Part shown: positions 11,396 through 42,913 of the stretch, one piece after another
Layout: every line of letters begins with the position of its first letter
Position numbering within the stretch: the first letter of the stretch is position 1
Translations under genes and position numbers: made by a program
The notes under the pieces: model-generated
Told to the model about the DNA's origin: nothing
The model's database searches: none
Seen by the model: the letters and a program-made list of their open reading frames with translations, nothing else
From: Pontibacillus marinus BH030004 = DSM 16465
Lineage (GTDB): Bacteria > Bacillota > Bacilli > Bacillales > BH030062
Assembly: GCF_000425225.1 (NCBI RefSeq)
Contig: NZ_AULJ01000043.1
Span: 1 to 48,394, forward strand
Length of the DNA: 48,394 nucleotides
Reading direction: 5' to 3'

Positions 11396-11416
11396 TTTGA
11401 AATAATTGGTATAAGA
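11396..11416 (+). promoter_or_regulatory. Copy 3 of TTTGAAATAATTGG motif
   Basis: TTTGAAATAATTGGTATAAG lies 51 bases ahead of the gene at 11468. In this copy TGGTATAAG is close to a canonical extended -10 element, which supports the promoter reading. Confidence 0.55.
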
Positions 11417-11467: not shown

Positions 11468-11668
11468 GTGGAAGTTATTATTGTTAATGTTGTTTTTGTA
11501 ATTTTAGTTGTAACACTCATTGGCTTTATCATATACAGAGATCATAAGAGTAACAAACAAAACCCTTCAACAAACCATAAAGGGAAATCAAAAAGTGATG
11601 TAAATCAAGATAAAGAACATGCTGAAAAATTGACAGAAGCACAAAAAGGCAATGGTCGAGCTTGGTGA
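11468..11668 (+). CDS. Small single-pass membrane protein
   Basis: A 66-residue protein with one N-terminal membrane helix (about 4-22) and a charged Lys/Asn/Gln-rich tail. GTG 11468 lies seven bases after GAGGAGG. The topology suggests a cytosolic tail. It is followed after 75 bases by a member of the paralogous membrane family and may be cotranscribed with it. The family is not recognised. Confidence 0.6.
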   Translation: MEVIIVNVVFVILVVTLIGFIIYRDHKSNKQNPSTNHKGKSKSDVNQDKEHAEKLTEAQKGNGRAW

Positions 11669-11743
11669 CCTTTTTGGATTTTGGCTTGAAGGTGCAGATC
11701 TCATTTTTGGAAAGTTATTTTCGAGTAGTAAAGAGGTGTTTAT

Positions 11744-12142
11744 ATTAAGAAGAATATCATTTTTGTAATATTAATTTTATCTGGTTTATCGATCTTCATG
11801 CATTTATCAATATCGACATATTGGGATTTGAAAGAAGCTGAAGACAATGGGGTTTTGTCAACTACTCTAAGTATAAAACTAAGCTTATGGGTGTTTGTGT
11901 TTGGCGTTTTATTAGAATGGAAGAGCTTAAAGCGTTTAATCCAGGGACAATTTAAAATCACCTGGTTGTTCATTCCTGCGATCATTTTAACCGTGTTAAG
12001 CTTTATTCCAAGCTACCACTGGGTATCTTGGTTCGGAGTGGGGTATCCATTTTTTATAGAAATGTTCTATATTCCAAAAACACAACCATTACTAGATGCA
12101 GCATCTGGCATTCTATTTATTCGTTCCATCAGTGGGGAATAG
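11744..12142 (+). CDS. Four-helix membrane protein, paralogue family member 1, ATT start
   Basis: A 132-residue membrane protein of an unnamed family with two paralogues at 21615 and 22035. Helix 1 is N-terminal, helix 2 ends in L-L-E-W-K, helix 3 is W-L-F-I-P-A-I-I-L-T, and helix 4 ends in I-R-S-I-S. No ATG, GTG or TTG lies between the upstream stop (11729-11731) and helix 1. ATT 11744 has GAGGTG (11733-11738) five bases upstream. Read from ATT, D-L-K-E-A falls at residues 28-32, exactly as in the 21615 paralogue. The first ATG (11798) lies inside helix 1 with no ribosome site. The function is unknown. Confidence 0.65.
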   Translation: MKKNIIFVILILSGLSIFMHLSISTYWDLKEAEDNGVLSTTLSIKLSLWVFVFGVLLEWKSLKRLIQGQFKITWLFIPAIILTVLSFIPSYHWVSWFGVGYPFFIEMFYIPKTQPLLDAASGILFIRSISGE

Positions 12143-12203
12143 AAGTAATTAATTGAGCTTTATGATGTATTGTTATGACTTTGAGAAAAGAGGCGTTTGT
12201 TTT

Positions 12204-12824
12204 ATGGTCACTCTATATATCACCAGACATGGAGAGACAGTTTGGAACACAGAAAAAAGAATGCAAGGCTGGTCAGACTCCAAACTGACAGAAAACGGAG
12301 AACGAAATGCTGAATCCTTAGGGAATCGATTAAAAGATACTAATCTATCTGCTATATACTCGAGTCCTAGTGATCGAACGAAAAGAACTTCTGACTTAAT
12401 AAAGGGAACAAGAGATATACCGATCTTTTACGATGACAATCTAAAGGAGATTAATATGGGGGAATGGGAGGGACAAACGCTACCAACCATTAAAGATACA
12501 TTTCCGTTAGAATTTGACTCTTTCTGGAACACTCCTCATCTATTTACTCCAATTGGAGGAGAAACATTTGAACAAGTGAGAGATAGAACAATTGATTTTA
12601 TAGATCATATTAGAAAAAACCATGAGTCAGGTAATGTGTTAGTAGTTTCTCACTCAAACGTGATCAAATGCATGTTTTCAATTTTTAAGAATCTCAAAAC
12701 AGAAGATATATGGGCACCTCCTTATATACAGGATACAAGCTTGAGTATTGTAGAGCTTCATCAAAGTGAATGCAAAATCTTATTAGAAGGTGATGTTTCC
12801 CATAAGGAATACCTAAAAACCTAA
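12204..12824 (+). CDS. Histidine phosphatase family protein
   Basis: A 206-residue protein of the phosphoglycerate-mutase-like histidine phosphatase superfamily. The catalytic R-H-G-E-T is at 8-12, the second Arg lies in S-S-P-S-D-R, the acid/base Glu in N-M-G-E-W-E-G, and the second catalytic His in V-V-S-H-S-N. Typical members dephosphorylate small metabolites; the substrate here is unknown. ATG 12204 is chosen, with AGAGG upstream, because it places the RHG motif near the N-terminus as in the family. Confidence 0.85.
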   Translation: MVTLYITRHGETVWNTEKRMQGWSDSKLTENGERNAESLGNRLKDTNLSAIYSSPSDRTKRTSDLIKGTRDIPIFYDDNLKEINMGEWEGQTLPTIKDTFPLEFDSFWNTPHLFTPIGGETFEQVRDRTIDFIDHIRKNHESGNVLVVSHSNVIKCMFSIFKNLKTEDIWAPPYIQDTSLSIVELHQSECKILLEGDVSHKEYLKT

Positions 12825-12908
12825 TTATAAGCATAGTTAAATTGTAACTCACTCATACATCTGGTGAATTAGGAAAGCATTTTCACCTAAAAAGGAGAGT
12901 TCAAGAGA

Positions 12909-13673
12909 TTGAGAGATATTCAAGAAATGCAGCAACAACTTAAAGGTACCTTTAAAGTATTAAATGGACTTCCAGATTATATTCTAATTGAAGAAAAAGA
13001 CGAATCGATATATGAACAATCAAAAATTCAGGAACAGCTGCAATATATAATTAACGCAGGTATATCCCTTGGTATAAAAAGGATAAGTGCTGTTATACAT
13101 AGAAGTACCAAGCATTATCAAGAGCTCTCTAACCTAATGATCTCACATGGCTTTGAACCATATGCTAATAAAGTTGAAGTGTTTAAAGAGCTGATCGATC
13201 TGCCTAACGTAGTACATGATTATAAATGGCATTCAATAAGTGATCTCTCCATTTCTGAAGATGCATTTAAACACTATTGGGAGCAATGTATGAGCGATTC
13301 TGAAAATGAACCGTCAACTCTATCAATGGAGCAATATCTGGATTCAGTTAAAAGTGAACTAGGGGACTCTTGGAAGGAGACATGTAAGGTTGTTTTTCTT
13401 GAAGGTAAACCACTAGGAGTAACAATGCCCCATATTGAACCTGGTACAAATGATGAAGGTAGATTATTTTACTTTGGAATATTACCAGAAGAAAGAGGCA
13501 AGGGACATAGCACCCCCATTCACTATCAATCTCTTATTCATTTAAAAGAAATGGGAGCGACGTATTACATTGGTAATACTCACGAAGATAACGTAAAGAT
13601 GCAGCGGGTATTTGAGAGGAATGGTTGTAAGGTAAGGGCAAGAACGGAATCCTATTATAAGTATTTTGAATAA
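12909..13673 (+). CDS. GNAT family acetyltransferase
   Basis: A 254-residue protein whose C-terminal half is a GNAT domain. It shows V-V-F-L-E-G-K-P-L-G-V, then F-Y-F-G-I-L-P-E-E-R-G-K-G as the acetyl-CoA binding loop, then the end segment N-V-K-M-Q-R-V-F-E-R-N-G. The N-terminal half is probably a second degenerate lobe. TTG 12909 follows GGAGAG. The next gene starts 14 bases after its stop, so the two are probably cotranscribed. The acceptor is unknown. Confidence 0.8.
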   Translation: MRDIQEMQQQLKGTFKVLNGLPDYILIEEKDESIYEQSKIQEQLQYIINAGISLGIKRISAVIHRSTKHYQELSNLMISHGFEPYANKVEVFKELIDLPNVVHDYKWHSISDLSISEDAFKHYWEQCMSDSENEPSTLSMEQYLDSVKSELGDSWKETCKVVFLEGKPLGVTMPHIEPGTNDEGRLFYFGILPEERGKGHSTPIHYQSLIHLKEMGATYYIGNTHEDNVKMQRVFERNGCKVRARTESYYKYFE

Positions 13674-13687
13674 AAGGAGAGATCTTT

Positions 13688-14254
13688 ATCGAAGAATATG
13701 TCTATCATATGGTTCCTAAGAAGATGTTTGGAGATCAACTCATGCCTTTGAACAGATTAAAGGTGAAAGATGAAGAGCTTTATAAGAAATATATTAAAAA
13801 GTACGAAGATCATCCAAAACGTAAGAAATTACCTCAAAGGAAAATCCCTAAGCTTGATTGTTTATGGAACGGTGTCCTTCATTTTCTCCCTCTACACCCA
13901 AACCATGTATATGAAGCTCTCAAGACATTTGAAGTGAATGCAAGAACAGATTTACTCTTTTTTGAAATACCTATAGATAACCTATCAAACAACCAAAATG
14001 TTATATATCAAACTGATAAAACAAGTTATCGAGGCCCTGATAAAGTTATTCCTGATGAACATATACATACCATAGATACCCAGCAATATCATGAACTTAC
14101 CTCAATCCCTCAAGACACAGTTGATTACTATAAAGAGGAAAGTGGAAAAGGGAACAAGTTTGGAATGTTTCAATTCATTCCACATCTCTTTAGTTATGGA
14201 GAAGTAGATATTTCGAATGCAGAAGTGGTTAATTGGAGTAATAAATTGCACTAA
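13688..14254 (+). CDS. Uncharacterised protein, ATC start likely
   Basis: A 188-residue cytosolic protein resembling a group found in Bacillus genomes that begins Y-H-M-V-P-K-x-M and continues with P-L-N-x-L-K and L-W-N-x-V-L-H. I know no function for it. AGGAG (13675-13679) lies eight bases before ATC 13688. The first ATG (13709) is 29 bases from that site, and the upstream frame has a stop at 13667. An ATC start is therefore the best reading. It follows the GNAT gene by 14 bases. Confidence 0.65.
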   Translation: MEEYVYHMVPKKMFGDQLMPLNRLKVKDEELYKKYIKKYEDHPKRKKLPQRKIPKLDCLWNGVLHFLPLHPNHVYEALKTFEVNARTDLLFFEIPIDNLSNNQNVIYQTDKTSYRGPDKVIPDEHIHTIDTQQYHELTSIPQDTVDYYKEESGKGNKFGMFQFIPHLFSYGEVDISNAEVVNWSNKLH

Positions 14255-14296
14255 TTATAATTTTTAAATTGCGTTATCTAAAATGGAGGAGTTCGC

Positions 14297-14656
14297 GTGA
14301 AAGGACTGCTAATAAGATCACCATGGATTGATCTAATCTTAGAAGGTAAAAAGACTTGGGAGATACGAGGGTCCAATACTAAAAAGAGAGGGAGAATTGG
14401 GTTAATCAAAAGTGGCTCAGGCATCGTTTATGGAACAGTCAATATTGTTGAAAGTAAAGAACTTACTTTAGATGAATATAAAAATGGTTCACATCTTCAT
14501 TGCGTGAGTAGTGAAGACACTATCCAACTCCCATACAAGAAAACTTATGCTTGGGTTTTAGATAATCCAATCATTTATGACACCCCAATTCCATACCAGC
14601 ATCCTATGGGGGCAGTAATTTGGGTTGATCTTTCAAAGGCTCTAAATATTAAATAG
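14297..14656 (+). CDS. ASCH domain protein
   Basis: A 119-residue protein matching the ASCH fold, which is related to PUA domains and tied to RNA binding or nucleoside hydrolysis. The opening G-L-L-I-R-S-P-W-I-D-L-I-L-E-G-K-K-T-W-E has the conserved G-K-K-T-x-E motif, followed by R-G-R-I-G-L. GTG 14297 lies behind GGAGG. It is the last gene before the terminator at 14694 and may belong to the transcript starting at 12909. Confidence 0.8.
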   Translation: MKGLLIRSPWIDLILEGKKTWEIRGSNTKKRGRIGLIKSGSGIVYGTVNIVESKELTLDEYKNGSHLHCVSSEDTIQLPYKKTYAWVLDNPIIYDTPIPYQHPMGAVIWVDLSKALNIK

Positions 14657-14693
14657 CTACTTGGATTAAAATATCCATTAATAATGATATGAA

Positions 14694-14734
14694 AAAAGAC
14701 TTCCAGTTTTATAATATTTGGAAGTCCTTTTGTG
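14694..14734 (+). terminator. Bidirectional terminator
   Basis: AAAAGACTTCCA (14694-14705) pairs with TGGAAGTCCTTTT (14719-14731) with a bulge. The run of A before and T after the stem can end both the plus-strand ASCH transcript and the minus-strand gene at 14779. Confidence 0.75.
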
Positions 14735-14778
14735 TTATAGAATTAATTAAGTAAAGAATCCTGTCAGCAATATATTAT

Positions 14779-15270
14779 TTACGACTCTGTAACATCTACC
14801 TCTAATGAATAAGGAATACCAAGATACGTGTATTTTATATTTAAGGTTTTAGGCACTTCATTACCAAATACCCGTAACCCATAATGTTTTATGATTTTTT
14901 TGTCACCCTTTTGATATAGCTTTCTTTGTTCATCAAGTGGTAACACAGGTTGAATTTCTAATTCACTAAGTTTGTGGAAAGTAATATATCGATCTTCATC
15001 CAGACCTCCCCCAGCAATCATATGATTTGACCTACTTACGCCCAATTCAACTTTTTCAGCTTTAAATCCATTAACTAATACATCTTTAAGTTTAAGATTT
15101 GCAAATCCGTTGTTTTCTATTTCCACAACTCTTTTTGTTTCATAATCTGCATAAAAGCTTACTCCCTTTGACGATAATGGTGGGTTAGATTTTAGATATA
15201 TGAAGCACCCACATAACAAAAAGACAAAAATGAGACCAGTTATTAGAAGTTTTCTTCTCAGAATAATCAC
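14779..15270 (-). CDS. Membrane-anchored secreted protein of unknown function
   Basis: About 163 residues with one N-terminal hydrophobic segment ending L-L-C-G-C-F, either a non-classical lipobox or a membrane anchor, followed by an extracellular domain. The start is uncertain: GTG 15270 overlaps the AGAGG ribosome site, while ATT (15264-15262) and CTG (15261-15259) are five and eight bases from it. It is transcribed alone, opposite to its neighbours. No family was recognised. Confidence 0.55.
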   Translation of the reverse strand: MIILRRKLLITGLIFVFLLCGCFIYLKSNPPLSSKGVSFYADYETKRVVEIENNGFANLKLKDVLVNGFKAEKVELGVSRSNHMIAGGGLDEDRYITFHKLSELEIQPVLPLDEQRKLYQKGDKKIIKHYGLRVFGNEVPKTLNIKYTYLGIPYSLEVDVTES

Positions 15271-15477
15271 CTCTCTTCAAGGTATATGAAGTTGATATAT
15301 GTATGGAAGTATAGTTACCAAATTGTAGCATTCGTTATCTAAATAAGATACCCTTCTGAATTCTATTATACTTTTTATCAATTTAGCTCCTTGAAATAAC
15401 AATCATTTGTTATAGTATTAGTAAGAATATTATATAATAGTAAAATGTGAAAAGCATTAAACAAATGGAGTGTTCAT

Positions 15478-15672
15478 ATGCAAAAATTAGACAAGTTTTT
15501 AACCTACTTTTACATCATTTTAGGTGCTATCTTCGGAATATCATTCTTGTACACCCTATTTACCGCAGGGGAACTGATACTTATTGATGGCGCCTTTACT
15601 GTTGTGGCCTTTTTTGCAGCTTACATGGCAAAGAGAAGAAGAGAGAAAATGATGGGCGGAAATACCAACTAG
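15478..15672 (+). CDS. Small two-helix membrane protein
   Basis: A 64-residue protein with two hydrophobic segments (about 8-28 and 33-50) and a basic end, K-R-R-R-E-K. ATG 15478 is preceded by a purine-rich AAATGGAG. The function is unknown. It converges on citA, with a shared terminator between them. Confidence 0.6.
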   Translation: MQKLDKFLTYFYIILGAIFGISFLYTLFTAGELILIDGAFTVVAFFAAYMAKRRREKMMGGNTN

Positions 15673-15685
15673 GTTCTACTTCTAT

Positions 15686-15725
15686 AAAAAGGACTCGTGA
15701 AGTTATGCTTTCGCGAGTCCTTTTA
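15686..15725 (+). terminator. Bidirectional terminator between 15478 gene and citA
   Basis: AAAAGGACTCG (15687-15697) pairs with CGAGTCCTTTT (15714-15724) around a TGAAG/CTTTCG extension. The symmetrical A and T flanks suit both strands. Confidence 0.8.
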
Positions 15726-15732
15726 AAATACA

Positions 15733-16836
15733 TTACTTATCTAAATTCTTCTCATAAAGGGGTCCTACATATTGTGCTGATGGCCTGAAGATTGTATTAT
15801 CCTCTAACTGCTCCATAACATGTGTCGTCCATCCCACCATACGACTTGCAGTAAATGTAGCTGTGAACAGGTGACTTGGAATATTCAATTCTCTTAGAAC
15901 AGCAGCTGCATAGAACTCTACGTTCGTGTAAAGTTTTCGGCCAGGCTTAAGTTCTTCTAATACCTCAATAGCTGTCTTTTCAACTTTTAGTGCAAGGTCA
16001 AACCAATCATCTTCCTTTTTGTTATCCTGAAGAGTCTCTTTAATTGCCTGCGCTCTTGGATCCATGGTTTTATAAACTCGATGCCCGAATCCCATAAGCT
16101 TTTCCCCGTTTTCCACCTTTTGTTGAATGCTTCCTCGAATATCTCCACTTTTAGCAATGTCATTTAATAGATCTATAACGCCAGAAGGAGCACCGCCGTG
16201 TAAAGGACCTTTCATTGTTCCAATCGCAGATGTTGCTGCTGACCCCAAATCAGACTCCGTTGAAGCGGTCACTCTAGCTGAAAAGGTAGAAGCATTTAAC
16301 CCATGCTCCATGGTTAAAATCATGTAGGTCTCTAACGCTTTTACATAAGAGGGAGATGGCTCTTCTCCTGTTAACATATAAAGATAATAAGCAACGTGGT
16401 CTAAATCAGTTCGTTCCTCTGGATAGGTAGTGTTGTTTTGAATGGATTCTCGGTAAGAAATTATGGCAGGTACAAGTGAAGTCAGTGTAATGGCATCTTG
16501 GAGTGTAATTCGTTTTGTATCGTATAGTTCTATAGATGAGATAGCCGTTCTTAAAACACTTAACATCTCATGGTTAGCTGGAATATTGTCTATTATATTT
16601 TTTACGTAATTTGGAAGCTTACGTGATTGTTTAAACTGTTGTTTTGTGTTACTTAATTCTTCGGTATTAGGAAGCATACCATTCCAAAGTAAATAAGCTA
16701 CTTCTTCAAATGAATGCTCTTTTGCTAGGTCTTGTGCCGAGAAACCCCGGTAAATTAATCTTCCTTTTTCTCCATCAATATGACTGATTTTAGTTTCTGT
16801 ACAGACTACACCTTTTAATCCTTTTTGTATCATCAT
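15733..16836 (-). CDS. citA: Citrate synthase CitA
   Basis: A 367-residue citrate synthase of the short bacterial type. Conserved sites are M-E-H-G (His178), G-P-L-H-G-G-A (His213), G-F-G-H-R-V-Y-K (His252) and the catalytic-acid segment N-V-E-F-Y. That segment has Glu307 where most family members have Asp. The enzyme condenses acetyl-CoA and oxaloacetate to citrate for the TCA cycle. Length and divergent arrangement with a LysR-type gene match B. subtilis citA (366 residues) and citR. Methylcitrate synthase is the main alternative. Confidence 0.87.
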   Translation of the reverse strand: MMIQKGLKGVVCTETKISHIDGEKGRLIYRGFSAQDLAKEHSFEEVAYLLWNGMLPNTEELSNTKQQFKQSRKLPNYVKNIIDNIPANHEMLSVLRTAISSIELYDTKRITLQDAITLTSLVPAIISYRESIQNNTTYPEERTDLDHVAYYLYMLTGEEPSPSYVKALETYMILTMEHGLNASTFSARVTASTESDLGSAATSAIGTMKGPLHGGAPSGVIDLLNDIAKSGDIRGSIQQKVENGEKLMGFGHRVYKTMDPRAQAIKETLQDNKKEDDWFDLALKVEKTAIEVLEELKPGRKLYTNVEFYAAAVLRELNIPSHLFTATFTASRMVGWTTHVMEQLEDNTIFRPSAQYVGPLYEKNLDK

Positions 16837-16944
16837 TGACCTCCTAAATATTTGCTTATTTTTAGTATAAAATGTATTGTGAATTTAGAAAATTAAATAA
16901 AATTAATGGAAGTGATTAAAAATATTAATGCATGAGGTGTGCCA
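16837..16944. promoter_or_regulatory. Divergent citA/citR control region
   Basis: A 108-base AT-rich region separates citA (minus) from citR (plus). LysR regulators usually bind between divergent genes at a T-n11-A dyad. Candidate AT-rich dyads are present, but I could not single one out. Confidence 0.45.
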
Positions 16945-17826
16945 ATGGAATTATCATGGATGAATACCTTTATAACGGTTGCGGAGGAAGGGAGCTTTCG
17001 TAAAGCAGCCGATGTTTTATACGTCTCCCAGCCAACTGTAACGGTACATATTAAGTCATTGGAAAAAGAATTAGGGGTCAGTCTTTTTGAAAGGAATAAT
17101 CGGTTTGTCAAGCTAACTGAGGAAGGTAGAAGGTTCATTAAACATGCTCGAAGGATGATTGATGCTCATCGAGAAGGTATTGAGGATATGAATTCTTTTG
17201 GTCAAGGGTATAGAAAGAAGTTGCGATTAGCCATATCTCCTTCCATAGCGGATACGATTATGCCAACTGTTTTAAAAGGGTTTTTGAAGAGCAATCCAGA
17301 AGTAGAGATTGACGTAGAAATTATGGAATCAACGAATATTGAAAAGGCAGTTAGCCATGAGGAAGTGGATATTGGTTTTTCACTACTTAAAAGCCAAGAT
17401 GATCAACTGAACTGTGTTGAACTATATGAGGACCAAATCATTTTTTGTGTCCCGCATGACGGGTATGATTCTGAATCTGCACCTCTAAGCTATCCAGAGG
17501 AATTTTTAAAACATAACTATTTACTCACACACAATTATCCGGGCGTTTGGGACACTTTGCATCAAAAAATTAAGTCAAGATTTCCGAGAACAAAAACGAT
17601 GAAAGTGTCTCAGGTTCATATTACGAAGCGGTTTATTGAAAGTGGTCTGGGGGTTTCGTTTCTACCCAAATCTACAGTGAGGAAAGAATTGCTGGAAGGT
17701 AGGATATTAGAAGTGCCTATCCCGCAAATTGATCTTCCTCAAGCACATACTTTTGCTCTAACGAAGTATAACCATTCTTTAGAAAACGATTTTATCTCAT
17801 ACGTTTCCAACCATCAGTTTAAATAA
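16945..17826 (+). CDS. citR: LysR-family regulator CitR
   Basis: A 293-residue LysR-type regulator. The winged helix-turn-helix at about 2-60 contains F-R-K-A-A-D-x-L-Y-V-S-Q-P-T-V-T, followed by the typical L-E-K-E-L-G-V-x-L-F-E-R. The rest is a two-lobe effector-binding domain. In B. subtilis CitR represses the divergently transcribed citA, and the same arrangement here supports the name. ATG 16945 is chosen because GAGGTG lies five bases upstream. Confidence 0.85.
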   Translation: MELSWMNTFITVAEEGSFRKAADVLYVSQPTVTVHIKSLEKELGVSLFERNNRFVKLTEEGRRFIKHARRMIDAHREGIEDMNSFGQGYRKKLRLAISPSIADTIMPTVLKGFLKSNPEVEIDVEIMESTNIEKAVSHEEVDIGFSLLKSQDDQLNCVELYEDQIIFCVPHDGYDSESAPLSYPEEFLKHNYLLTHNYPGVWDTLHQKIKSRFPRTKTMKVSQVHITKRFIESGLGVSFLPKSTVRKELLEGRILEVPIPQIDLPQAHTFALTKYNHSLENDFISYVSNHQFK

Positions 17827-17850
17827 CAAGGGTACAGTAGGAGGGGGAAT

Positions 17851-18405
17851 ATGAAAGAAGAAAAGGTGATGTGGCAAAGTAAAAGCCCTATTGGATGTGA
17901 ATATCTTAAATTAATTCAATATCCTCAAGAAATAACCGCCCAAGGTACAGTGATATACGCTGATGAAAAGGATGCTTACAAGGTGATGTATCAAATAGAG
18001 CTAGAGAAAAATTGGGTGACGAAAAGTGTTGAAGTAGCTGTAGAAGGTAAAGACCACACGTTACATCTACGTTCAAACGGAATGGGCGATTGGTGGTCAA
18101 ATGATACATATTTAGAGGGCATGCAGGGAGCTATCGATGTAGATATATCTGTAACCCCTTTTTCTAATTCGCTTCCCATCAATCGATTTGAATGGGCAGT
18201 AGGAGAGAGGAAGTCCTTTCATATGTTGTATATAGACGTGCCTTCACTAGAGTTATTACAGTTAAAGCAACATTATACGTTGGTTAATGAAGACGAGGGA
18301 AAGAGATTTTTCCAATACGAATGTCGAGACTATAAAACTACCATTCGTGTGGACCAGGACGGCTTAGTTGAAGATTATCCTGGATTATTTACTCGAGAAT
18401 TTTAA
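17851..18405 (+). CDS. Putative glycolipid-binding domain protein
   Basis: A 184-residue protein resembling the glycolipid-binding family PF06475 (formerly DUF1089). It has a W-x-S-x-x-x-x-G-C-E-Y-L opening, L-R-S-N-G-M-G-D-W-W, then D-I-D-V-type acidic beta strands and a C-terminal D-x-x-G-L-V-x-D-Y-P-G-L segment. The biochemical role of the family is poorly known. ATG 17851 follows GGAGGGGG and lies 24 bases after citR, so cotranscription with citR is possible. Confidence 0.75.
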   Translation: MKEEKVMWQSKSPIGCEYLKLIQYPQEITAQGTVIYADEKDAYKVMYQIELEKNWVTKSVEVAVEGKDHTLHLRSNGMGDWWSNDTYLEGMQGAIDVDISVTPFSNSLPINRFEWAVGERKSFHMLYIDVPSLELLQLKQHYTLVNEDEGKRFFQYECRDYKTTIRVDQDGLVEDYPGLFTREF

Positions 18406-18437
18406 GGTTCATCAGTATTTGAAAGGGGAGATGTATT

Positions 18438-18506
18438 ATGAAAATGACCATGACACTTTACAGGGGACTAAATCAATCGAGGGTGAACGTATCACTACCC
18501 CTATAA
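18438..18506 (+). CDS. Possible 22-residue peptide
   Basis: ATG 18438 has AAGGGGAG at a good distance and opens a 22-codon frame. It begins M-K-M-T-M-T-L-Y-R-G. It could be a real small peptide, a leader for the kinase-like gene 33 bases downstream, or a relic. Composition gives no clue. Confidence 0.25.
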   Translation: MKMTMTLYRGLNQSRVNVSLPL

Positions 18507-18539
18507 ACTACGTGATCCCATAAATAGGAGGATCATTAC

Positions 18540-19403
18540 TTGGACAATTTAATTACGATAGAACTTGGGAGTTTAGAGTTTCAATTACAAGAACATCATG
18601 ACTTCTCTTGGTTAGAGAATATGGGCGAAGTATTTTGTGTTTTTGATGAGCAAGATTCCGGTAATATAAGTTTTGGATTAAAAAGAGATAACCAGAAGTT
18701 TTTTGTGAAATACGCTGGTGCAAAACCAATGGAATATAACGGAAATCCTGAAGATGCTGTAAACCGGTTAAAAGAAGCTATACCCGTTTACCAGACCTTA
18801 GATCATCCTCATTTGATCAAGTTGGTTGATCATTTCAAAACAACAGATGGATTTGCAGCGGTTTTTGAATGGTTTAATGGGGAATGTTTGCATGCTCATT
18901 GGTCTTTTGGAGGAATAGCTAAATACACAAATCCAGCCTCACCTTTTTATCGTTTTAAGAGACTTCCGATTTCGAAACGATTAGAAGCATTAGATAGACT
19001 CTTCTCTTTTCATAGCTTTGTAGAGTCACAGGGGTATGTAGCTGTTGATTTTTACGACGGGAGTATTCTATATAATTTTGAAAATGATGAGGCAAAAATC
19101 TGTGATATAGATTTTTACCAAAAATCTCCGTCTGTAAATGATATGGGGGAGAGCTTCTGGGGAGCAGACAGATCAAAATCTCCAGAAGAGTATAAATTAG
19201 GGGCTCCCATTGATTCCATAACGAATGTATATAATTTAGGAGCTATTGCTTTTGGATTGTTGGGTGGAGAAACCGATCATTCATTTTCAAAATGGGAAGC
19301 GGATGAAAATCAATATTATGTAGCTATTAAAGCAACTTCAGAGGATAGGGACGCACGTTTTTTATCTGTTAAAGAATTTTATCAAGCTTGGCAAAATGTT
19401 TAA
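18540..19403 (+). CDS. Protein-kinase-like protein
   Basis: A 287-residue protein with a kinase-like fold read by eye. An F-F-V-K-Y-A-G lysine strand is near residue 59. A hinge F-E-W-F-N-G follows, then Y-V-A-V-D-F-Y-D-G-S-I-L-Y at the place of the catalytic loop. A C-D-I-D-F segment sits at the metal-binding DFG position. The canonical HRD and DFG are altered, so it may be an atypical Ser/Thr or small-molecule kinase. TTG 18540 lies behind GGAGGATC. A terminator follows immediately. Confidence 0.65.
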   Translation: MDNLITIELGSLEFQLQEHHDFSWLENMGEVFCVFDEQDSGNISFGLKRDNQKFFVKYAGAKPMEYNGNPEDAVNRLKEAIPVYQTLDHPHLIKLVDHFKTTDGFAAVFEWFNGECLHAHWSFGGIAKYTNPASPFYRFKRLPISKRLEALDRLFSFHSFVESQGYVAVDFYDGSILYNFENDEAKICDIDFYQKSPSVNDMGESFWGADRSKSPEEYKLGAPIDSITNVYNLGAIAFGLLGGETDHSFSKWEADENQYYVAIKATSEDRDARFLSVKEFYQAWQNV

Positions 19404-19423
19404 TCTAAGAGAGAAGGAAGATA

Positions 19424-19459
19424 GACACAAACCCATGTGACAGGTTTGTGTCTTTTTTT
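19424..19459 (+). terminator. Rho-independent terminator
   Basis: GACACAAACC (19424-19433) pairs with GGTTTGTGTC (19443-19452) and is followed by T7. Confidence 0.9.
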
Positions 19460-19554
19460 CTATACAGAAGGATTACATAAATACATATAGAAGAGGTTTG
19501 AAATGGAAATTCCCTTACATCATGAAACTTTATATTTTTTTAGTAGGTGATGAC

Positions 19555-20781
19555 TTGAATGGATGGATAAGTAAGTATGTGCTCCTGCTCTCTGGAGTAG
19601 GGATATCTTATCTAGGTAACTGGATATATCTGATCGCCATTAATATTACAATTTTAAACTTAACGGGATCTGCAGCAGCTGTAGCTGGCCTCTATATTAT
19701 CAAACCTATTGCACTCTTAATCACGAATTTCTGGTCTGGAAGTGTCATTGATCGAGTAAATAAAAGAAAGCTCATGATAATAGTGGATATTGTTAGAGGG
19801 ATTTTAGTTTTTTGTATTCCTTTTGTAGGCTTTCTATGGGGGATATATGGATTGATCTTTCTTATCAATATCGTGGGAGCTTTTTTTGGTCCTAGCTCTG
19901 CGGTCTATATAACAAAGCTTATTCCACCAGAGCGGAGACAGCGATTTAATTCCATGATGAGCATGACTAATTCAGGTGCATTTTTGTTGGGGCCTGCTAT
20001 TTCTGGCATTCTTATCATGTATGTCGGTACTGAATTATGTATAATCATCAATGCTTTTTCATTTATTGTTTGTGCCTTTTTCATTTTCCTTCTTCCAGAT
20101 GTGGATGAAGAGACTGGTGAAGTTCGTGAACCTATAAAATGGAAGACTCTTTTAAAGGATCTAAAAGCTGTAGTCGATTTTTCAAAGAGGGCTACTTTTT
20201 TTATAACAGTCTACTTGCTATTTCAAATAGCTATGCTGATTGGGTTTGCATTGGATTCACAAGAGGTTACTTTTATCAAACAAAACTTAGAGCTTTCGGA
20301 ACGTGATTACGGCCTTATTGTAAGTATAACTGGAATCGGCGCTCTTCTTGGAGGGAGTGTAGCTGCTGTTCTGTCGAAAAAGATACAGCTTCGCTTTTAT
20401 ATTGGTGGAGGGATTCTGCTTTCATCAGTTGGTTATGTGATGTTTTATTCTTCCTTTAACTTTATCTCAGCTACTTTTGCATTCGTTTTCTTAGGATTCT
20501 TTATGGCGTTTGCGAATACTGGCTATGCTACCTTTTTTCAAAACAGTATCCCAGTCGATCTTATGGGGAGGTTTGGTAGTATTGCGAATATGGTTCAAGG
20601 ATTGATTCAAATAGGATTTACATTATTATTAGGTCTAACTTCTGAGTGGTTTTCTCTTCAAATCGTATGTTTGATTTTTGCTAGTGTAGGAACATTAATT
20701 GCAGCGATCCTATTTTCAATCTTTTTATTTTCAGAAAAAGCCAAATTTGATAAGGAACAATCAAATGCGTTTACGAGCTAA
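19555..20781 (+). CDS. MFS transporter
   Basis: A 408-residue major facilitator protein with about 12 membrane helices. The loop 2-3 motif is present as G-S-V-I-D-R-V-N-K-R-K, typical of drug or metabolite exporters related to MefA-type proteins. TTG 19555, six bases after AGGTGA, is preferred over TTG 19498, because homologues usually start just before the first helix. The substrate is unknown. It is a single-gene unit after the terminator at 19424. Confidence 0.8.
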   Translation: MNGWISKYVLLLSGVGISYLGNWIYLIAINITILNLTGSAAAVAGLYIIKPIALLITNFWSGSVIDRVNKRKLMIIVDIVRGILVFCIPFVGFLWGIYGLIFLINIVGAFFGPSSAVYITKLIPPERRQRFNSMMSMTNSGAFLLGPAISGILIMYVGTELCIIINAFSFIVCAFFIFLLPDVDEETGEVREPIKWKTLLKDLKAVVDFSKRATFFITVYLLFQIAMLIGFALDSQEVTFIKQNLELSERDYGLIVSITGIGALLGGSVAAVLSKKIQLRFYIGGGILLSSVGYVMFYSSFNFISATFAFVFLGFFMAFANTGYATFFQNSIPVDLMGRFGSIANMVQGLIQIGFTLLLGLTSEWFSLQIVCLIFASVGTLIAAILFSIFLFSEKAKFDKEQSNAFTS

Positions 20782-20869
20782 AGTAAGAAAATAAATCAAA
20801 CACCTATTGAACTATCATGCCCTCCATGATAGGATGTACTGACGTTTACCTTACAAGGAGGGGAGAAAA

Positions 20870-21505
20870 ATGAATCGGATCTACCTAAGAATCCTGTATT
20901 ACACACTTGGCATTGTGATTTTAACTGCAGGAATCTCTTTAACCATCCTTGCCAAATTAGGGACTTCTCCTTTTGATGCCCTGCTTGTGGGTTTGTATCG
21001 AACATTTGGCTTAACGATAGGAAGCTGGGAAATTGTTGTTGGCTTAAGCATGATTCTGTTTAACTCAGTAGCAGAAAAACGCAAACCTGAGATCATTGCT
21101 ATATTTACATCCTTGCTTACGGGAGTAGGGATTGATTTTTGGGTCCATTTATTTAGTGGGTGGATTGCACCACAGTCGATTGTGTACCAAATCATATGTT
21201 CTTCACTTGGATTGATCATTTCTGCTTTAGGTATTGCGATCAATCTTCAAGCGGATTTTGCCCCTAATCCTTTTGATCGTATGATGCTTGTTGTTAAGAA
21301 TTTAACGGGTAAATCAGTCTCATTTGCTCGAGCTTTAATTAGCATTGTTTTAGTGATCATTGCTGCCTTTTTTGGGGGAGCAATTGGTATAGGAACGTTG
21401 ATCATCGCTTTTACAAGTGGAATGGTTATTCACTTGTTTATGAAGGGCATGTATCATATCGACCAACGACTTTTAAGTTATAAACCAAGTGTAAGTAAAT
21501 CATAA
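20870..21505 (+). CDS. YczE/YitT-type integral membrane protein
   Basis: A 211-residue protein with five or six membrane helices. It resembles the YczE/YyaS family, with G-x-x-L-T-I-L-A-K-L-G-T-S-P-F-D in helix 1 and the internal repeat-like A-P-N-P-F-D-R-M-M. The molecular function is not known. ATG 20870 lies behind AAGGAGGGG. A terminator follows at 21506. Confidence 0.78.
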   Translation: MNRIYLRILYYTLGIVILTAGISLTILAKLGTSPFDALLVGLYRTFGLTIGSWEIVVGLSMILFNSVAEKRKPEIIAIFTSLLTGVGIDFWVHLFSGWIAPQSIVYQIICSSLGLIISALGIAINLQADFAPNPFDRMMLVVKNLTGKSVSFARALISIVLVIIAAFFGGAIGIGTLIIAFTSGMVIHLFMKGMYHIDQRLLSYKPSVSKS

Positions 21506-21540
21506 GACGTTTTCCTTGTTTTAAGGAAAGCGTCTTTTTT
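21506..21540 (+). terminator. Rho-independent terminator
   Basis: GACGTTTTCCTT (21506-21517) pairs with AAGGAAAGCGTC (21523-21534), with a G-U pair, and is followed by T7. Confidence 0.85.
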
Positions 21541-21570
21541 TACGAAAAAGGATTGAGTTAAATGGTTCCT

Positions 21571-21591
21571 TTTGAAATAATTGGTATTAAA
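21571..21591 (+). promoter_or_regulatory. Copy 4 of TTTGAAATAATTGG motif
   Basis: TTTGAAATAATTGGTATTAA ends 23 bases before ATT 21615. If TATTAA is the -10 element, the transcript would start near 21597 and still include the GGAG ribosome site at 21602. Confidence 0.6.
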
Positions 21592-21614
21592 GTGAAGTAT
21601 TGGAGTGTGATTTT

Positions 21615-22016
21615 ATTTATAAAAAAATTGCTTTACATGCAGCATTAATTGTTGGAGCTCTGATTCTTCTTTATCTAATGGTAGATTCCTATGATGATTT
21701 GAAGGAAGCTAATAATAGAAATGATAATATAAGGTTTTTACTTACAAAAATGACACTTTGGGGTTGTTTATTTGGAGTTCTTTTGGAATCCAAAAGAGTA
21801 ATCGCATTAATTCTAGGAAACATCAGACTAAATTGGTTACTTGCACCGGTTATTATTCTATTAGTGTTAGTATTCATACCTCGAACTTACGTATTGCATT
21901 GGTTTGGAGTAAATGAGCCGTTTTATATTTGGATGTTCCTGGTGCCAGACACACATATGGCACTCAGTATTCTATCTGGAGTACTCCTTGTGAGGTCTTT
22001 GAGTCCTAATGAATAA
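21615..22016 (+). CDS. Four-helix membrane protein, paralogue family member 2, ATT start
   Basis: A 133-residue paralogue of the genes at 11744 and 22035. Shared landmarks are Gly14, D-L-K-E-A at 28-32, L-L-E-x-K after helix 2, N-W-L-x-x-P in helix 3, W-F-G-V-x-x-P-F, and a final V-R-S-L-S. ATT 21615 is nine bases after GGAG (21602-21605) and gives an N-terminus that aligns exactly with member 1. TTG 21600 is possible but has no good ribosome site and would add five residues. The function is unknown. The next paralogue starts 18 bases after its stop. Confidence 0.65.
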   Translation: MYKKIALHAALIVGALILLYLMVDSYDDLKEANNRNDNIRFLLTKMTLWGCLFGVLLESKRVIALILGNIRLNWLLAPVIILLVLVFIPRTYVLHWFGVNEPFYIWMFLVPDTHMALSILSGVLLVRSLSPNE

Positions 22017-22034
22017 AGAAGGGGATGGAAAACG

Positions 22035-22469
22035 ATCAAAACGTTTATTCAATATGTTGTTGTGTTTTTAACCGGTTTAATCATCTTAAATACTATAGCA
22101 GATATTTTGAGAAGCATGGCGATGAATTCGGAAGCAATTGCGAGAATAGATGCGAAGAGGTTATGGATTTACTTTTCTATCTCACTACTTAGCATATTAT
22201 TCGGGATTCTTATTGAGTGGAAGCGGGTTTTGAAGATTTTGAAGGGTGATCTTAAGATTAATTGGCTCATGATCCCTACAGTTATTTTGCTAATGATCAG
22301 CCTAACTCCATATACTTACACATTTAAGTTCGTTGGTATTGCTTCTTTTCGTCACATTCCATTTGGGATTTTATTCGCCCCCATGCAACAAACCCATGTT
22401 TTATTAATGATTGGGATTCTTACAGGGATTATGTTGGTTAGATCTTTAAAGAATGATTCTGTAACGTAA
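22035..22469 (+). CDS. Four-helix membrane protein, paralogue family member 3, ATC start
   Basis: A 144-residue third paralogue, directly behind member 2 as a tandem duplicate. Helix 2 ends in L-I-E-W-K-R, helix 3 is N-W-L-M-I-P-T-V-I-L, and the end is M-L-V-R-S-L. Read from ATC 22035, ten bases after AAGGGG (22018-22024), the T-G-L at residues 13-15 aligns with S-G-L and V-G-A of the other two. The first GTG (22062) lies within helix 1 and lacks a ribosome site. The function is unknown. Confidence 0.62.
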   Translation: MKTFIQYVVVFLTGLIILNTIADILRSMAMNSEAIARIDAKRLWIYFSISLLSILFGILIEWKRVLKILKGDLKINWLMIPTVILLMISLTPYTYTFKFVGIASFRHIPFGILFAPMQQTHVLLMIGILTGIMLVRSLKNDSVT

Positions 22470-34422: not shown

Positions 34423-34932
34423 GTGATATTCATTAATAAAATTATACTGATTGGTTCAGGTGGTTCTGGGAAGTCCACGCTCGCCAGAAAAATGGGGGAG
34501 AAGCTTAACATTGAAGTGCATCACTTGGACTTACTTTTTTGGAAGCCTGGATGGGTAGGAGTTCCAAAGGATGAACAAAGAAAAATACAAAATGATTTAG
34601 TGGAAAAAGGACAATGGATCATAGATGGAAACTATGGCGGAACGATGGATATACGAATACGTGCAGCGGATACGATTATATTCTTAGATATGCCAAGGTT
34701 GTTGTGTGTTTATAGAGTATTTAAAAGGTGGTTCCAATATCGAAATCAAACGCGACCTGATATGGGAGCTGGAACTGAAAGAGTTAGGCTAGAATTTCTG
34801 AAATGGGTTTGGCACTATCCTAAAACGAAAAAGCCTCAGATCTTAGAAAAACTTGAGGGATTGTCTGATGAAAAAGATATTATCATTCTTAGGTCACCAC
34901 AAGAAGTTCGTAAATTTCTTCAAAACATATAA
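34423..34932 (+). CDS. P-loop adenylate-kinase-like protein
   Basis: A 169-residue protein resembling the topology-modulation/adenylate-kinase-like family. The Walker A G-S-G-G-S-G-K-S-T is at 11-19. It also has H-H-L-D-x-L-F-W-K-P-G-W, a typical segment of this family, and W-I-I-D-G-N-Y. GTG 34423 has AGG seven bases upstream; ATT 34432 would give an N-terminus like that of homologues (N-K-I-I-L-I-G). The function is unknown. Confidence 0.75.
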   Translation: MIFINKIILIGSGGSGKSTLARKMGEKLNIEVHHLDLLFWKPGWVGVPKDEQRKIQNDLVEKGQWIIDGNYGGTMDIRIRAADTIIFLDMPRLLCVYRVFKRWFQYRNQTRPDMGAGTERVRLEFLKWVWHYPKTKKPQILEKLEGLSDEKDIIILRSPQEVRKFLQNI

Positions 34933-42448: not shown

Positions 42449-42913
42449 ATTCGTTATAAATCGTTCATACTATTATTTGTTTTAATCTTGGTCACTTCCT
42501 GCTCAGTTGATGAAACAAAAACACTAAGTATAGAAAAAACAGATGAGTTTAAACAAGTAATAATTCAAAAAGTGGATACGGAAAAGTCTATATTTAACTT
42601 CACTAGTGAAAAAACTTCACTTATTTCGGAGATTATCGAATTGGTTAATAAGAAGTCTGTTAAACGGTTGAAAGATACAGAAGGTCATTTTAACGAATTG
42701 AAAGATAAGAGTTACTATTCCTTTACTTTTATAGATGAAAAGGGGGAGGTTCAAGATCTTCATCCTGAATTTGCTTTCTTGATTCTGGAGGATGGAACGC
42801 TTCTCTATTCCGATCAAGAGAGAGAAGATAAACAACTTTCACTGATTAGTATAGAAAAGCATCCAAAAGTGCTGGAGGATTTAAAAAAGGTCATTGATGT
42901 TACTAAACAATAG
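42449..42913 (+). CDS. Lipoprotein with ATT start
   Basis: A 154-residue lipoprotein of unknown function. The upstream in-frame stop is at 42431-42433. Between it and the lipobox the only canonical start is TTG 42488, inside the signal peptide and without a ribosome site. ATT 42449 lies five bases after AGAGGG and gives a complete signal peptide R-Y-K-S-F-I-L-L-F-V-L-I-L-V-T-S-C with Cys18. The mature domain is charged and small. Reading it from ATT is the best explanation. Confidence 0.65.
   Translation: MRYKSFILLFVLILVTSCSVDETKTLSIEKTDEFKQVIIQKVDTEKSIFNFTSEKTSLISEIIELVNKKSVKRLKDTEGHFNELKDKSYYSFTFIDEKGEVQDLHPEFAFLILEDGTLLYSDQEREDKQLSLISIEKHPKVLEDLKKVIDVTKQ

Follow-up and report, generated by a model that had tools for sequence, protein, structure and literature searches.

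The window analysed here, a stretch of 48,394 nucleotides of Pontibacillus marinus BH030004 (contig NZ_AULJ01000043.1), carries three paralogous genes for small predicted membrane proteins whose reading frames appear to begin at ATT, ATT and ATC (paralogues 1 to 3; Table 1). A preliminary description of this DNA had proposed these codons as the starts, and all three are present and in frame. When residues are counted from them, a glycine is residue 14 in all three proteins and the sequence DLKEA occupies residues 28-32 in paralogues 1 and 2, as had been described. The ribosome site said to precede each start was also found; the Shine-Dalgarno duplexes are given in Table 1. The absence of a good canonical start was confirmed for paralogues 1 and 3. 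None of the four codons from the upstream in-frame stop to the ATT of paralogue 1 is canonical, and none is canonical from the upstream stop to the ATC of paralogue 3; the nearest downstream canonical codons are an ATG at +18 and a GTG at +9, respectively. Paralogue 2 has a TTG at -5 codons with a weak Shine-Dalgarno site (-3.4). Identity to paralogue 2 is 42% for paralogue 1 and 29% for paralogue 3.

A search of the whole genome with protein 2 (E <= 10) found five places: the three window paralogues and copies on contigs C66 and C6. A five-row profile search of the same genome returned the same five. The C66 copy reads AAAAGGGGGAGAAACCA-ATT-AAG-AAC and the C6 copy reads GTAGGGGGGAGCATT-ATC-TAT-AAA, both with a strong Shine-Dalgarno site and, like the window genes, without a canonical start; in the C6 copy an ATT adjoining the ATC is also a possible start. 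ATT or ATC thus stands at one column in 5/5 paralogues found in the genome, with duplexes of -9.7 to -12.0 kcal/mol. The corresponding figure is 5/430 for gene-like open reading frames (ORFs) outside the family (Fisher p 2e-9) and 5/64 for small ORFs with a hydrophobic N-terminus (Fisher p 2e-5). Both p values overstate independence because the paralogues have common descent.

The family consists of predicted four-helix membrane proteins of approximately 133 residues. Its conserved features are an SLW-FLFG-L-EW motif, a WFG loop and a C-terminal GILLVRS. The predicted model has a mean predicted local distance difference test score (pLDDT) of 87, and its first helix comprises residues 2-35, so that a later start would shorten this helix. 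Neither the three window proteins nor 12 family members gave a significant match in Pfam or NCBIfam (best E 0.012-0.15, each for a single member). Foldseek found 0 matches of the model in the PDB at E <= 0.001 (best E 1.3), the best E in a profile search of PDB sequences was 0.19, and a search of a plasmid collection gave no match.

Table 1. Coordinates of the paralogues, their Shine-Dalgarno sites and other features of the window
Feature	Position	Strand	Details
Paralogue 1	11744..12142	+	132 codons, first codon ATT
Paralogue 2	21615..22016	+	133 codons, first codon ATT; L014 (same genus) likewise ATT
Paralogue 3	22035..22469	+	144 codons, first codon ATC; L019 (same genus) reads GTG-ATT there
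Shine-Dalgarno site, paralogue 1	11730..11738	+	AAAGAGGTG; duplex -9.7 kcal/mol, 5 nt 5' of ATT
Shine-Dalgarno region, paralogue 2	21602..21610	+	GGAGTGTGA; duplex -11.7 kcal/mol
Shine-Dalgarno region, paralogue 3	22017..22026	+	AGAAGGGGAT; duplex -9.7 kcal/mol; directly after paralogue 2 stop
TTGAAATAATTGG box	11397..11409	+	then TATAAG; ahead of gene 11468-11668, the direct 5' neighbour of paralogue 1
TTGAAATAATTGG box	21572..21584	+	then TATTAA; ahead of paralogue 2 (paralogue 3 behind)
TTGAAATAATTGG box	587, 40591	+	two remaining window copies
Candidate ATT lipoprotein gene	42449-42913	+	AAAAGAGGGATAGC-ATT; IRYKSFILLFVLILVTSC; lipoprotein-type signal peptide when read from ATT
Small secreted-type gene	14779-15264	-	start column ATT 15264, next codon CTG

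The start column in relatives

Family matches were found in 5/8 genomes of the genus (the window's genome counted), in 23/397 of the order and in 12/22 of family f2. GTDB contigs supplied 12 named loci, several of them identical to loci already found in the genome searches. An alignment of homologues at the first codon had been proposed as a check; in it, the close homologues carry ATG, TTG, ATT or ATC in one column. Over 41 loci this start column reads ATT in 20, ATC in 5, ATG in 10, TTG in 4, GTG in 1 and TAT in 1. The 34 intact and unambiguous loci comprise 15 with ATT, 5 with ATC, 9 with ATG, 4 with TTG and 1 with GTG, that is, 20/34 with ATT or ATC and 14/34 with a canonical codon. These 34 include the five loci of the window's genome, and most ATT/ATC loci lie outside it. 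Removed from the 41 were L038 (E 1e-3), L042 and L043 (frame breaks), L062 (TAG), L067 (TAA), L069 (column TAT, with an in-frame ATG upstream) and L019 (GTG beside ATT); the table never held L015, L017 and L035 (partial or broken) nor repeat records of the same loci. The intact frames are 127-144 codons long, as far as tabulated. On this alignment, ATT/ATC is the majority state among the loci examined, and it spans several genera.

ATT carriers within the 34 are found in Halobacillus aidingensis, Sediminibacillus terrae, S. albus, Alkalibacillus salilacus, A. almallahensis and Lentibacillus saliphilus. In Gracilibacillus halophilus and a Thalassobacillus, ATT stands ahead of a broken frame. 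The exact block GGAGGTTTTACT-ATT occurs in loci of five genomes (L021, L026, L028, L047 and L051); L027 and L050 carry sequences that differ little from it. The canonical relatives include Alkalibacillus filiformis (ATG) as well as Filobacillus and Aquisalibacillus (TTG). Well-aligned N-termini with ATG or TTG at the same column were seen in L009, L010, L023, L024, L039 and L059; the ATG of L009 aligns with the ATT of the C66 copy, and the two leaders are similar. The canonical start of L022 is one residue off the column (the protein is one residue longer), and in a distant canonical group (L034, L036, L037, L040 and L041) the column is less closely fixed. From the upstream in-frame stop to the column, 15/20 intact ATT/ATC loci have no ATG, GTG or TTG (count from the table); downstream canonical codons are scattered from +4 to +55. 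Because close homologues have ATG or TTG at the column, and because in many members the upstream stop is reached from it without passing a canonical codon, we regard the column, non-canonical codon included, as very probably the correct start.

A tree of 36 rows was calculated with the start codon left out (L038, L041, L042, L043 and L062 were omitted). The window's genome is represented in several parts of this tree: its five paralogues belong to different clades, and for most of them a close relative comes from another genome. On the best tree, 7 changes are needed to account for which rows have ATT/ATC and which a canonical codon (L019 scored as ATT, L069 omitted). Since 12/33 inner branches are weakly supported, we do not claim a direction for these switches. 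In a survey of 36 genome groups, one AUG-to-AUU switch was counted in 61,358 annotated starts, a number that rests on annotation (PMC5622118, available portion).

The Shine-Dalgarno sites of the 25 ATT/ATC rows are suitably spaced, and their duplexes have a median of -11.7 kcal/mol (range -18.1 to -8.2). Local RNA folding around the starts revealed no common closed structure. A U at position -1 is present in 18/23 ATT/ATC rows, in 3/15 canonical family rows and in 110/334 canonical starts of the genome sample (L019, L038 and L069 were omitted from this count; L042, L043, L062 and L067 were retained). The host infC and the gene at 42449 have a C there. A -1 U would fit in with a pairing extended to the anticodon loop of the initiator tRNA; extended codon-anticodon pairing was reportedly described by Esposito et al. 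in 2003. Shared descent may explain the bias, and extended pairing is unproven because the tree holds only 2 independent supported pairs.

Genome background and the shared upstream box

The genome control sample covered 459 kb of the window's genome. A canonical start with a good site lies no more than 50 codons from the coding edge in 355/378 genes, and ATG is the start in 280/374 sampled genes. The coding-score cut-off of the first genome scans excluded paralogues 1 to 3, and it was lowered for a looser control of 435 gene-like ORFs, in which a non-canonical codon was scored if it had a strong site and no canonical start near it had one. This yielded ATT 8 times (3 family, 5 non-family), ATC twice (both family), and ATA and CTG twice each. 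Ordinary sense codons were also recovered, namely AAG 5 times (3 at family genes, beside ATT) and TTA 4 times; part of the non-canonical signal is therefore noise. Host infC and the initiator tRNA, which had been named for inspection, look ordinary. The infC gene has ATT as its first codon, like that of other bacilli, and a PF00707 search found one gene for initiation factor 3 (IF3). Using what we take to be the initiator anticodon-arm sequence, we located two initiator-type arms, both CAU and normal (GGGCTCATAACCC at two sites).

Two other genes of the window probably also start at ATT, to judge from their sequences (Table 1). For the gene at 42449, initiation at TTG 42488, the first start listed, would truncate the signal peptide; its homologue L098 (G006, one internal TAA) has ATT and L099 (G003) has ATG. 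ATT 15264 aligns by eye with the ATG of a paralogue on contig C12 (L105) and with a TTG in G005 (L104), and a GTG at 15270 overlaps the Shine-Dalgarno site. These cases point to a habit of starting at ATT that extends beyond the family to small secreted-type genes of the window. At C1:16580 (L071) there is a small membrane ORF of 99 codons with a strong site and ATT, for which no relative was found in the other 7 genomes of the genus. Further unverified strong-site ATT, CTG or ATA candidates lie at 34432 (+) and 47058 (+) of the window and at 67566 (-) and 17404 (-) of contig C2.

The 13-base TTGAAATAATTGG box occurs 4 times in the window (0.01 expected). The genome holds 12 exact copies, and with at most one mismatch there are 32, versus 18 for the reversed control pattern. 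TATAA or TATTAA follows directly or after one base at 8/12 sites. An open frame follows most sites; the site on contig C42 has no clear gene. The box also precedes the C66 copy, the C6 copy is without it, and in G004 it is kept at both L009 and L014. The exact box was not found before other family relatives. The box has the appearance of a promoter or operator common to the members of an unnamed regulon, and we infer a promoter role for it as well as co-transcription of the gene at 11468-11668 with paralogue 1. Read from their sequences, the genes behind the box are often small membrane, lipoprotein or acetyltransferase-like genes. A histidine-phosphatase-like gene (likewise a reading from sequence) lies at 12195-12824 near paralogue 1 and another at 353-997 of L006 near the C66 copy, perhaps through an old segment duplication.

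Alternative readings and a proposed mechanism

The true start might lie elsewhere, either at a downstream ATG, GTG or TTG, with part of helix 1 lost, or at an upstream canonical codon. Such codons do exist near the column: L021 has an ATG at +4, the C6 copy and L011 a TTG at +5, paralogue 2 a TTG at -5 and L014 a GTG at -6; L029, L033 and L051 have upstream canonical codons, L019 has a GTG with a strong site directly before the ATT, and an ORF list restricted to ATG, GTG and TTG begins several members downstream. However, these positions are not common to the members and, L019 excepted, the column has the stronger site (upstream codons were compared from the start-column table; for downstream codons the screen was part of the genome control). 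A start further downstream would cost paralogues 1 and 2 and the C66 copy 18-23 residues of helix 1, and the canonical relatives begin at the ATT column. We consider a start elsewhere improbable, and rejected upstream and downstream canonical starts on the start-column table and the alignments. It is slightly less probable still that the genes are decaying and their starts are mutated ATGs. Several relatives do carry broken copies, but the ratio of nonsynonymous to synonymous substitution rates (dN/dS) is 0.14-0.42 (10 pairs, some with common members; dS 0.28-1.25), the frames are intact, and ATT and the Shine-Dalgarno site are kept between genera. These ratios led us to reject start decay, and they indicate that the family proteins are under purifying selection. 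The argument that a shared non-canonical start is not the decay of one start stands, as five relatives share it and the starts of homologues lie at the same column. Before the first canonical codon, the proportion of nonsynonymous differences (pN) is 0.00-0.17, versus 0.06-0.16 for the whole gene, an about equal rate (8-22 codons per pair).

A milder possibility is that the genome tolerates such starts, so that small, weakly expressed membrane or lipoprotein genes, of which little protein is needed, drift to ATT, ATC or CTG; the family would then be the largest instance and nothing would regulate it. The non-family candidates of the same genome (42449, 15264, C1:16580 and others) fit this explanation, as do the ATT in the G006 homologue of 42449 and the broken family copies in several genomes. 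Among small ORFs with a hydrophobic N-terminus and a strong site, the best codon is non-canonical in 10/68 despite a bonus for canonical codons (4 family, 2 judged spurious at 654 and 22236, and 4 others). Yet the family exceeds this background, with 5/5 here and 20/34 loci, most outside this genome and several outside the genus, and it retains both its strong Shine-Dalgarno sites and its protein sequence. We therefore hold mild tolerance to be unlikely, while giving it some weight. Of the two options put forward in the preliminary description, regulated, weak initiation and relaxed start selection, weak initiation is the better one; general relaxation finds no support, as canonical starts dominate and infC and the tRNA are ordinary. 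A general loss of start selection is unlikely, given that non-family ATT candidates are few, that infC begins with ATT and that nothing unusual is seen in the initiator-tRNA arms; we rejected it on the 459-kb scans together with infC and these arms. That an altered initiator tRNA or IF3 of the lineage decodes AUU and AUC as normal starts is scarcely credible. Inspection of the anticodon arms, the IF3 gene and the start codons yielded no point in its support; both arms are CAU, the single IF3 gene is itself read from ATT, and ATG remains the usual start.

The reading that we prefer is true but weak initiation. The ordinary initiator tRNA would start at AUU or AUC with a third-base mismatch, positioned by the strong Shine-Dalgarno site. 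IF3 proof-reading would disfavour the mismatch and make initiation weak, with the strong site as a partial rescue. The weak codon would be retained because there is an advantage in a low dose of the membrane protein, and the repeated changes of start codon, from ATT/ATC to canonical or the reverse, would represent tuning of this dose. If IF3 or initiation fidelity were lowered, output should rise. The AUU/AUC start thus probably keeps the protein amount low and sensitive to the strictness of the ribosome towards start codons. Taken as a whole, initiation that is real, weak and discriminated by IF3, and that keeps dosage low, is a likely explanation of the pattern; selection for weak, IF3-sensitive output, as a part of it, is somewhat likely.

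Several observations weigh against this reading. The 14/34 loci with a canonical codon mean that a weak start is not obligatory, and in L009, the locus most closely related to the C66 copy, the codon is ATG. The ATT/ATC duplex median is close to those of the 16 other family rows (-11.45) and of genome genes (-10.7), and no special Shine-Dalgarno compensation is therefore seen. In some pairs, pN of the short N-terminal stretch is close to the synonymous proportion pS (for example 0.15 and 0.16 over 9 codons in L050/L051), and N-terminal constraint is consequently not demonstrated pair by pair. Broken copies are also common: L042, L043, L062 and L067 have frame breaks or internal stops, and L015 and L017 are truncated or broken. 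Loose selection on dosage is therefore possible. With several broken relatives, a lost 5' end among the defects, the family seems to be lost often.

Known systems and significance

The E. coli gene pcnB encodes poly(A) polymerase. Its translation is reportedly limited by an AUU codon (PMC9410913, accessible part), as we propose for the family, but it is one gene in another phylum. Like the family, infC has a conserved non-AUG start (AUU or AUA) with a strong site; infC is a single gene under feedback by its own product in E. coli (same portion of PMC9410913), whereas the family is an accessory, multi-copy one of predicted membrane proteins. The S. aureus genes cvfC1 (AUU) and ccpN (AUA), the latter also in B. 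subtilis, share conserved non-canonical starts, strong sites and membership of the Bacillota with the family (PMC13009471, in the part available). They are single genes for unrelated proteins, unlike several old paralogue clades that switch between weak and canonical codons. The same excerpt puts AUU/AUA starts of S. aureus with extended sites at approximately 10% of AUG output in poor medium, and ccpN at up to 30% in rich medium. In Listeria, start mutants of rsbW together with infC (ATT) and rnhC (ATC) indicate that ATT, ATA and ATC starts occur and tune output, and reporters rank ATG > ATA > ATT; the rsbW changes arose under laboratory acid selection, in contrast to the old state common to genera seen here (PMC13068326, as far as accessible). 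The titles and abstract openings found in paper searches, with most subscription journals outside reach, described neither this family nor any paralogous AUU-start family; a single AUU-start gene reported there is the Borrelia nicotinamidase (PMC13398362). Conserved use of a weak start in most family members appears to be real: its kind is known from infC, pcnB, ccpN and cvfC1, and the family and the extent are new.

We can also envisage, with considerable doubt, a start-codon regulon in which unrelated small membrane proteins and lipoproteins start at AUU or AUC (possibly CUG) and have a common level set by IF3 or initiation fidelity. The TTGAAATAATTGG box would then belong to a part of it (paralogue 1, paralogues 2/3 and the C66 copy), and ATT/ATC members may be helped by the -1 U through a longer pairing with the anticodon loop of the initiator tRNA.

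ORF lists limited to ATG, GTG and TTG trim part of the first membrane helix from some family proteins. AUU starts are generally encountered one gene at a time, and a family whose most frequent start is AUU/AUC represents a natural replicate evolution of the weak start. Such a family could be used to test the purpose of weak starts and the extent to which protein dose is set by IF3.

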